From assembly GCA_001825315.1 (NCBI GenBank), contig MHVR01000014.1, forward strand, positions 9,129-48,035: 38,907 bases of DNA. Direction: 5' to 3'. The notes beneath the pieces are model-generated. The model was not told the DNA's origin and ran no database searches. It saw only the letters and a program-made list of their open reading frames with translations. Position numbers and translations under genes: made by a program. Position 1 is the stretch's first letter, and each line of letters opens with the position of its first letter. Below are positions 11,130 to 13,098 of this stretch, piece after piece. The DNA comes from Candidatus Zambryskibacteria bacterium RIFCSPHIGHO2_02_FULL_43_14. GTDB lineage: Bacteria > Patescibacteriota > Minisyncoccia > Phycocordibacterales > Zambryskibacteraceae.

Positions 11130-11339
11130 ATGGGAAAAGTTATCATGCAATTCCAGTCAGACCTGCTCAGGCGAATAGATGAAGTTGCTAGGCGCGGGCA
11201 ACGAAGTCAGTTTGTCCGAGAAGCAGTGGAAGAAAAACTGCAACGACTGGCACAAGCAAAACTTGCTGCTGAGTTGGAAGAAGGCTACAGGACGAACGCA
11301 GAGCGTATGATCTCTGAACATCGAGACTGGTTGATTTGA
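11130..11339 (+). CDS. Ribbon-helix-helix (CopG/ParD-like) DNA-binding protein
   Basis: A 69-residue protein. Its first half matches a ribbon-helix-helix fold: a short beta strand KVIMQFQSDLLRRIDEVA, then RRGQRSQFVREAVEEKLQRLA. The C-terminal half is a charged helical tail typical of antitoxins that bind a toxin. No toxin gene adjoins it: upstream is proS and downstream a terminator. It has its own promoter, a strong Shine-Dalgarno site (CAGGAGG, 4 nt from ATG) and its own terminator. One sampled 60-base line is about 55% GC, above many neighbours. It could be a solitary antitoxin, an orphan regulator or a cargo gene. Confidence 0.8.
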   Translation: MGKVIMQFQSDLLRRIDEVARRGQRSQFVREAVEEKLQRLAQAKLAAELEEGYRTNAERMISEHRDWLI

Positions 11340-11433: not shown

Positions 11434-11449
11434 GTACGATATATCGTAC
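11434..11449. promoter_or_regulatory. Operator-like palindrome, 3' side of the TrpR-like gene
   Basis: GTACGATATATCGTAC, a perfect 16-bp palindrome, lies 9 bp beyond the stop codon. The same sequence occurs upstream of the gene at 11937-11952. Including flanks, 22 bases are identical in inverted orientation. Confidence 0.75.
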
Positions 11450-11458
11450 AAATTCTTA

Positions 11459-11929
11459 TTATTTCATGGTCCTTCTTTTTCTTTCTTCTAACTTCTTGAT
11501 TCGAGAAGTAATGCGTTCTTTTCTTAATGAATCATCTAAAGATTTCCACCTTCCCTTACCTGATCGTGGAGGCATTATTCCTCCTACTGTTTGAATCATG
11601 TTGATTATATCCACAATATCAGTCTTTTTAAGACCACTTTTTATTACATGATCATAGCTACCGACTTCAAATCGCAAAGACATGATATCGGTAGTTGAGG
11701 GACTCATTGCCAAACTTAGAGCAATATCATGAATTGGAATATCTTGAGACAACATACTGATAACCGCTAGACGTTTCGCTAGCATGACCTTCTCGGTAGG
11801 AGTAAGAAGTTGGCTAAGTACCTGTCTTAATTCGCCTCTCCTACCCGCCCTTTCAAACACAGAAACAATTTCCAAAAACAAATCTTTGACATATTTATCT
11901 TCCAACTTTCTTTTTGATATATGGGGCAT
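11459..11929 (-). CDS. TrpR-like (YerC/YecD-type) transcriptional regulator
   Basis: A 156-residue DNA-binding protein. Residues about 35-95 resemble the TrpR/YerC helix-turn-helix fold: LTPTEKVMLAKRLAVISML followed by IPIHDIALSLAMSPSTT. A basic C-terminal tail (KKLEERKRRTMK) extends beyond the usual length of about 100. The start at 11929 (MPHISKRK) is preferred over an ATG at 11962, because the latter lies inside a candidate -10 box and upstream of an operator-like palindrome. Identical palindromes at both ends of the gene suggest autoregulation. The ligand, if any, is unknown; no tryptophan genes are nearby. Confidence 0.8.
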   Translation of the reverse strand: MPHISKRKLEDKYVKDLFLEIVSVFERAGRRGELRQVLSQLLTPTEKVMLAKRLAVISMLSQDIPIHDIALSLAMSPSTTDIMSLRFEVGSYDHVIKSGLKKTDIVDIINMIQTVGGIMPPRSGKGRWKSLDDSLRKERITSRIKKLEERKRRTMK

Positions 11930-11936
11930 GATACTT

Positions 11937-11963
11937 GTACGATATATCGTACATTTTATCATA
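11937..11963 (-). promoter_or_regulatory. Promoter and operator of the TrpR-like gene
   Basis: On the minus strand a TATGAT -10 box (11958-11963) is followed 5 bp later by the 16-bp palindrome GTACGATATATCGTAC (11937-11952), which would cover the transcription start and the 5' leader. A protein bound there would block its own promoter. Confidence 0.6.
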
Positions 11964-11988: not shown

Positions 11989-13098
11989 TTAGAAAATGTT
12001 GCGGACATCGCGGAAAGTGATGAGAAGCATCAAGAAAATAAGCAGAGCGAAACCGGCAGTGTTTAGAGCATTAAAGATTCGTGGTGGGATAGACCGGCGA
12101 GTAACTCCTTCAATCGCGACAAAGAGCAGACGCCCGCCATCAAGCGCCGGAAAAGGTAGAAGATTGATAATGGCGAGATTAATAGAGATAAGCGCGATAA
12201 AAGTCATAAGATAAGAGAAACCGAGTTCGCGCACATCCCCCACCATACCCACGATTCCCACCGGTCCCGTCACACTGGAAAAATCGGCTTTGCCGCCGAG
12301 AGCTTGAAAAATAAAAGTCCCAATTGCTTGACCCGTCATCCAAGTCAGTTCGGAAGTAGTTTTAAACCCTTGCCAGAAAGCCTTATGAGGCGGCAATTTG
12401 ACAATACCTATTACATCCATAGAGATACCAACAGCCGGTCTATCCGCAAGAATATTCTTGGTAGGTATTAAAATCTTCTTGGAAACTTGTCCACCCCTTT
12501 CTATTTCGAAGGTAATGGGTTCGATAGACTGAGCAATGAAAAGAGATAGGGCTTCTGGGGTAAGTTCAGAACGGGCTACCCCTCTTGAGAGTGAGAGGAT
12601 AGCGTCGCCGGACTTCAGACCAGCTAGAGCCGCCGGAGAATCAGGCAAAACAGTGACAATGACGGTGCGAGCATTTTCAATCGGTAGTGCGATGTCTGCT
12701 GGCGCGGGCATTCCTGTTATAAATCCAAGTGAGATTAAGAGCCAAGCGAAGAGGAAGTTGCCAATCACACCCGCCACCAACACAGATGCTTGAATACCTC
12801 TATTTTTTAACTGAAAACTCACTCCGTTTGCCAAGCCCTCCCCTTGGTAACTACCAAGGGGAGGGCTTGGTTCATCGGCTATAGGATTCTCTCCGAAGAT
12901 TTTGACAAAACCGCCGAATGGCAACCAATTGAGAGTAAAGGGCGTATTCTTCCAGATAAAAAGTTCTTTGGCGCGAGGCGGGAAACCGAGACCAAATTCA
13001 TCAACTCTAATACCAAATTTCTTGGCAACCAGAAAATGACCCAATTCGTGGACAATAATAAGCGCGCTTAAAATGATTATAAAAATGATGATTGACAT
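11989..13098 (-). CDS. rseP: Site-2-type membrane metalloprotease RseP (M50)
   Basis: Intramembrane zinc protease that cleaves membrane-bound regulators. The 369-residue protein has the HELGH motif (His17, Glu18, His21) in the first membrane helix, a PDZ domain (about residues 140-215, with VLPDSPAALAGLKSGDAILSL) and the second zinc-ligand segment NLLPFPALDGGRLLFV near the C-terminus. A 40-bp palindrome inserted in the loop after FGGFVKIFGENP encodes residues 77-90 and looks like foreign sequence kept in frame. It sits 8 bp downstream of frr, in the order FKBP, delta', frr, rseP. Confidence 0.93.
   Translation of the reverse strand: MSIIIFIIILSALIIVHELGHFLVAKKFGIRVDEFGLGFPPRAKELFIWKNTPFTLNWLPFGGFVKIFGENPIADEPSPPLGSYQGEGLANGVSFQLKNRGIQASVLVAGVIGNFLFAWLLISLGFITGMPAPADIALPIENARTVIVTVLPDSPAALAGLKSGDAILSLSRGVARSELTPEALSLFIAQSIEPITFEIERGGQVSKKILIPTKNILADRPAVGISMDVIGIVKLPPHKAFWQGFKTTSELTWMTGQAIGTFIFQALGGKADFSSVTGPVGIVGMVGDVRELGFSYLMTFIALISINLAIINLLPFPALDGGRLLFVAIEGVTRRSIPPRIFNALNTAGFALLIFLMLLITFRDVRNIF
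12831..12870. repeat. Near-perfect palindrome inserted in frame in rseP
   Basis: Nineteen-base arms pair perfectly (12831-12849 with 12852-12870) around a 2-nt centre. The left arm begins CCAAGCCCTCC and the right arm ends GGAGGGCTTGG. The element encodes PSPPLGSYQGEGLA in rseP without breaking the frame, as the Rickettsia palindromic elements do in other genes. Confidence 0.85.

Follow-up and report, generated by a model that had tools for sequence, protein, structure and literature searches.

TrpR-fold proteins of Patescibacteria and the palindromes that bracket their genes and recur through their genomes

The gene of a TrpR-fold protein in Patescibacteria is bracketed by two copies of a perfect palindrome, and the palindrome varies between lineages together with residues of the recognition helix of the protein. 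The bracketing, its conservation, the covariation of protein and palindrome, the mostly class-matched dispersed copies and the presence of copies in coding sequence without change of length can be read directly from the genomes. Because the palindrome covaries with the recognition helix, the TrpR-like protein very probably binds its bracketing palindromes directly. Our explanation as a whole, to which we assign a probability of about 0.6, is that a dimer binds both brackets, represses its own gene, blocks transcription downstream and occupies the dispersed copies as protein-bound marks. Few transcription factors have been characterised in Patescibacteria, a phylum of tiny and mostly uncultured bacteria, and experimental manipulation of these organisms is difficult. 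From sequence alone, the family described here yields natural pairs of protein and DNA specificity by the dozen, in effect a recognition code for the TrpR fold. We know of no description of a TrpR-fold gene bracketed by its own palindrome, and none was found in a literature search, which had subscription papers mostly outside its reach.

The gene and its two palindromes

The window, the whole stretch of 38,907 nucleotides that was analysed, contains the palindrome GTACGATATATCGTAC in exactly two copies, which flank the TrpR-like gene, one per side. The gene (11459-11929, minus strand) has its ATG at 11929, its last codon at 11462 and its stop at 11459-11461, and the coding part (11462-11929) encodes a protein of 156 aa. 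Since it lies on the minus strand, the true upstream copy is the one at 11937-11952, a probable operator located 7 bp before the start codon, and the downstream copy at 11434-11449 starts 9 bp after the stop codon. Both are exact, and the coordinates and sequence of the two 16-bp palindromes given in an earlier note on this DNA were confirmed. The 22-base inverted identity which that note had described between the two copies and their flanks also holds (TTGTACGATATATCGTACATTT), as does its TATGAT ahead of the upstream copy, a -10-like box by sequence at 11958-11963 (minus strand, read from 11963 to 11958) that ends 5 bp before the palindrome. TATAAT is present at the same place in G007, a genome of the same genus. 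Over all loci no consistent -10 signal was seen ahead of the upstream copy, the signal being weak and confounded by the AT-rich arms of the palindrome.

No further match to GTACGATATATCGTAC with up to 3 mismatches exists elsewhere in the window, and the shuffled window sequence gave a mean of 0.05 matches to the pattern. Genome-wide palindrome counts, here and below, come from pattern searches. In the 618-kb genome a third exact copy is found within a glycosyltransferase gene (contig C20). Matches carrying 2 to 3 mismatches number 3 there, about the level of the reversed-pattern control (2).

A ribbon-helix-helix gene adjoins the unit at 11130-11339, on the plus strand. It is solitary, RelB-like antitoxin by a weak match, with no recognised toxin partner, and it sits in the rseP-proS gap of the window genome only, being absent from G007 and G008. 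The palindromes were considered as an operator of this gene, and this was rejected: both lie past its end, and G007 and G008 keep the brackets without a ribbon-helix-helix match in the retrieved flanks. A second, unrelated coding palindromic element is located nearby, a 40-bp hairpin (CCAAGCCCTCCCCTTGGTAACTACCAAGGGGAGGGCTTGG, 12831-12870) in frame within rseP, which adds residues that are missing from rseP of G008.

The bracketing extends well beyond the window. A perfect palindrome of at least 12 bp with the same centre flanks the gene on both sides, at a distance of at most 200 bp, in 73 of 112 distinct homologous loci of Patescibacteria; among 203 other genes from these loci, none is flanked in this way (Fisher 3e-42, with relatedness not removed). 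The two sides of a locus share a palindrome of at least 16 bp in 54 cases, versus 1.5 for pairs taken from mismatched loci. Among the 39 remaining loci, 25 have an imperfect pair, a level reached by 29 of 200 mismatched pairs, which leaves 14 of the 112 with no pair even when imperfect matches are allowed. The palindrome core varies by lineage (CGATATATCG, CATATATG, CAGTTAACTG, CAGTATACTG, CAGCGCTG, CTTTAAAG, ATTTAAAT and others). More than two copies were observed in two places: tandem palindromes stand upstream of the TrpR-like gene in G114 (L348 557-738), three spaced by about 51 bp and a fourth at a further 62 bp, and six copies surround one paralog in G072 (L076 2151-2981).

Homologs were detected in 31 of the 148 related genomes searched; across the class, a profile search found them in 98 of 384 genomes. 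They also occur in 80 loci titled Patescibacteria or just 'bacterium', and none was found in viral contigs. In 12 of 15 genomes of the genus proS follows rseP with no such unit in the gap, and the unit lies between them only in the window genome, G007 and G008. The neighbours of about 110 units are diverse, falling into 168 clusters, with no conserved neighbour and no nearby trp or his operon. The restriction of the unit to few genomes of the genus, together with its diverse contexts, shows that it was gained in different places. Neither a transposase nor element ends at the palindromes were seen at the units.

The protein and its covariation with the palindrome

The proposal that the gene encodes a TrpR-like protein was borne out by profile, structure and fold comparison. 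The window protein matches PF01371 at 1.2e-5 (25.7 bits, just below the curated cut-off of 27), a family matched by 58 of 59 aligned relatives, and in a PDB profile search TrpR-like proteins come first (3frw at 9e-10, 3kor, 3g1c). Its AlphaFold model has a mean pLDDT of 87.6 and a helix at residues 77-88. The best Foldseek matches of the model are TrpR-operator complexes (1tro), with a TM score by target of 0.75-0.79 and a probability of 1.00, although the E-values are only 0.03 or more. No nuclease or transposase domain, including Y1 (HUH), was detected by Pfam, PDB profile or fold comparison.

The protein is unlikely to be a tryptophan regulator, because it scores only 14.1 bits against the TrpR equivalog TIGR01321 (cut-off 67.25) and has Ile82 where TrpR has Arg84, a contact to both tryptophan and DNA (alignment by eye); most relatives of the same class keep an arginine at this position. 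No NCBIfam model, TIGR02531 included, matched the window protein at E 0.01, and TIGR02531 (HisR/YerC) was weakly matched by 32 of the 59 relatives.

When protein columns were compared with half-site bases, the mutual information peaked at residues 77 and 78, the first of the recognition helix (z 12 to 14), which were joined at the top by position 82 and by position 3 in the N-terminal arm. Residues 77 and 78 covary with half-site bases +4 to +6, and in an alignment made by eye they correspond to Ile79 and Ala80 of TrpR, which contact the operator (PMC9413887). The predicted recognition-helix codons of the window gene, assigned from the model helix and this covariation, lie at 11666-11701 on the minus strand (residues 77-88, with Pro77 and Ser78 as the putative specificity residues). 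Within the CGATATATCG class, T at +6 is paired with Pro77 without exception (25 of 25 loci), and the other bases are paired with a residue other than proline in 13 of 14. Ser78 is found with TATCG in 38 of 39 cases and Gln78 with TATCA in 4 of 4, while Ala or Thr78 accompanies most of the other sequences. A tree was made with the recognition-helix columns left out, and along it base +6 underwent no fewer than 8 changes and residue 77 no fewer than 7. In 200 rounds of random pairing, 2.8 of the 3 independent pairs with good support were concordant on average and none was ever opposite; 3 pairs are too few for a significant sign test. G072 has three paralogs with three different palindrome classes, each class bracketing one of them, and solitary copies of all three classes are present in the same genome. 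The covariation over the 73 loci upholds the earlier suggestion that the palindrome is the site of the TrpR-like protein, very probably so.

The nearest known protein family is HisR/TrpR. With E. coli TrpR and the trp operator the system shares the fold, the helix-turn-helix, a palindromic operator and the aligned specificity residues. The core of the site of the G049 homolog (ACTACAGTTAACTGTAGT) resembles the trp operator, and the outer TGTAC/GTACA is shared with the TrpR motif TGTAcTnGTnnACnAgTACA (PMC9413887). Unlike TrpR, the protein falls far below the equivalog cut-off, has Ile in place of Arg84 (by eye) and carries an extra C-terminal extension, and its sites lie on both sides of the gene with no trp genes nearby. 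HisR (YerC/YecD), of the TrpR superfamily, binds 20-bp palindromes with lineage-specific consensus, and about half of the hisR genes have one upstream autoregulatory site (PMC9413887). The palindromes described here likewise have a lineage-specific consensus and an upstream copy, and the weak TIGR02531 matches point the same way. However, HisR acts on histidine genes from promoters, whereas here the brackets are two-sided and sites lie in coding sequence and at gene ends.

Solitary copies within and between genes

Beyond the brackets, palindromes of the same classes are dispersed through many genomes. The 12-mer ACGATATATCGT reaches up to 28 copies per genome and occurs in 38 of 148 genomes, being missing from most related genomes, and the reversed pattern never occurs in the same 148. 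Exact copies of ACTCCAGTATACTGGAGT number 11 in G055, and those of TATCATATATGATA number nine in G022, whereas G431, G061 and G018 have the bracketing pair only; the number of solitary copies per genome ranges from 0 to about 26. Class-typical sites without a detected gene were found in G047, G134, G091 and G012, some such genomes being incomplete. The earlier note had allowed that the palindrome might be a common repeat, dispersed without relation to TrpR-like genes: it is a dispersed repeat, but not an unrelated one, as its classes track these genes. Searching the genome and its relatives, as the same note had proposed, yielded mostly class-matched dispersed sites, the majority of which do not have the placement of operators.

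Among 121 distinct solitary sites, 59 lie in reading frames of at least 100 aa and 62 are intergenic. The gaps that hold them are convergent in 20 cases, co-directional in 31 and divergent in 4 (convergent versus divergent, p = 0.0015). This bias is opposite to that expected of promoter operators, and with half of the sites coding it makes a classical regulon doubtful. Perfect arms extend up to 24 bp per side in intergenic copies and do not exceed 17 bp in coding ones (p = 4e-4). The outer arms differ from place to place, and template switching and selection for hairpins are candidate origins of the long ones. When the solitary copies of one genome are compared, their flanks have essentially nothing in common outside the palindrome, and a longer mobile element around them (transposon or MITE) was rejected on this ground. 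In L325 (G062:C13) a 120-bp perfect palindrome runs up to the contig end, probably a fold-back made in assembly. A contig end is likewise no more than 200 bp away from several other sites, some of which are probably fold-backs as well. Reverse-transcriptase-like genes with a palindrome were noticed in five genomes (L323, L316, L117, L094, L110, L111), twice per gene in G003 and G014.

The same genes are hit repeatedly. In the N-terminal region of argS the palindrome is found at the same place in G111, G104, G007, G012, G091, G004 and G010, and the protein length is unchanged relative to orthologs without it. In the window's genus this site tracks the class of the resident protein (TATCGT in G007, TATCGA in G010 and TATCGC in G004), and it is decayed in G058, where no gene was detected, and in G114, whose protein is of another class. 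Such recurrence of a short sequence at homologous positions in coding genes, following the resident protein, is what functional sites should show, and inside essential genes it is unusual. Six genomes of the genus (L264, L266, L267, L269, L273, L274) have a different hairpin, CACTTGGAGGCTGAGCCTCCAAGTG and variants of it, at the same argS spot, as though palindromes of any kind were tolerated there.

Eight genomes have the site inside miaA, and in a ninth it lies 123 bp 3' of the gene. Its positions (about residues 85, 75 and 192) and reading frames differ, and all are gapless in the alignment. The recJ-rnhA-comEC stretch, with gene names assigned by eye, holds a site in rnhA (G111), just 3' of recJ (G022, G055) or just 3' of comEC (G051, G062), and uvrBA is also among the recurrent site-bearing genes. 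Many other site genes encode aminoacyl-tRNA synthetases, tRNA-modification or DNA-repair proteins, as assigned by eye without an annotated background set, so that functional enrichment is only a lead. At the 3' end of recJ, the sister genome G133 lacks about 160 bp of G055, including the palindrome, right after the recJ stop (L427, L428). The segment in G055 is bounded by repeated GTTTGA, and the difference is compatible with insertion or deletion.

Possible roles of the palindromes

In the explanation that we prefer, a TrpR-fold dimer would bind both palindromes that bracket its gene, with one recognition helix per half-palindrome. At the upstream copy, between the -10-like box and the start codon, binding would repress transcription of the gene itself, and this autorepression is the likeliest consequence of binding. 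At the downstream copy it may block transcription at the far end of the compact unit. The same protein would also occupy class-matched palindromes elsewhere in its genome. These copies, at tolerant coding positions and gene ends in a REP-like manner, would be protein-bound marks more than a promoter regulon. Autorepression alone leaves unexplained the downstream copy, the dispersed copies and the long, place-specific palindromic arms.

The roles under consideration for the dispersed sites are regulation, genome marking and selfish repeat. The nearest known architecture is that of RAYT genes, which are always flanked by two inverted REPs (PMC2817692) and each of which has its own REP class (PMC3116915). 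Here, too, the gene is mostly flanked by its own palindrome pair (73 of 112 loci), each paralog has its class, and solitary copies are dispersed. By analogy with these REPtrons, gene and brackets might form a selfish mobile unit with the dispersed palindromes as its non-autonomous offspring, and the helix-turn-helix protein might bind the repeats in partnership with a transposase or with recombination machinery acting in trans. The many contexts of the unit, its gain in the rseP-proS gap of 3 among 15 genomes of the genus and the preference of solitary copies for convergent gene ends agree with this. We nevertheless consider it unlikely, the partnership in trans included. The protein has a TrpR fold rather than a Y1/HUH transposase, and no nuclease or transposase domain. 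The palindromes are perfect, and their copies have nothing in common but the palindrome itself. REPs are many, usually more than 100, and extragenic, whereas here at most 28 copies occur per genome, only 0 to about 26 of them solitary, and 59 of the 121 solitary copies are coding, without length change in those examined.

An ordinary regulon, in which the dispersed palindromes are operators or roadblocks for the genes that hold them or lie nearby (miaA, argS, recJ-rnhA-comEC, uvrBA and others), seems rather doubtful. The hits on miaA in 9 genomes, at several places and in several frames, the recurrence of the other genes and the argS site that follows the protein class in one genus would fit such a regulon, but the intergenic copies stand in 20 convergent and only 4 divergent gaps, few copies lie in promoters, and the targets vary between genomes. 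A chromosome organiser resembling Noc, SlmA or ParB would account for dispersed sites, many of them coding without length change, and their density, from a few to about 25 per genome, is of the same order as that of Noc and SlmA sites. This role is quite improbable for a system whose sites and specificity diversify fast, with the sites absent from most related genomes and homologs of the protein found in 98 of 384 genomes of the class, and which in some genomes has bracketing copies only. Looping across the gene between the two operators, raised in the earlier note from two identical sites about 500 bp apart, is very improbable. The arrangement itself is conserved, but the spacing is not fixed, ranging from 426 to 667 bp across loci, and Rayleigh tests for helical phasing, with turns of 10 to 11 bp, found none (p 0.09 to 0.9).

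A wider picture can be proposed tentatively, as a possibility well short of probable. In this picture, a repressor-fold protein and its palindrome would co-diversify across Patescibacteria as a mobile unit, the palindrome being written by substitution or overwriting, not by insertion, into conserved genes (miaA, argS, the recJ-rnhA-comEC stretch and uvrBA), which might constitute a protein-specific genome-marking or gene-targeting system without known counterpart. Rickettsia palindromic elements are likewise palindromes within coding genes of small-genome bacteria. Those elements are insertions that add tens of residues to the protein, whereas the coding copies described here replace about 5-8 residues and leave the length unchanged.
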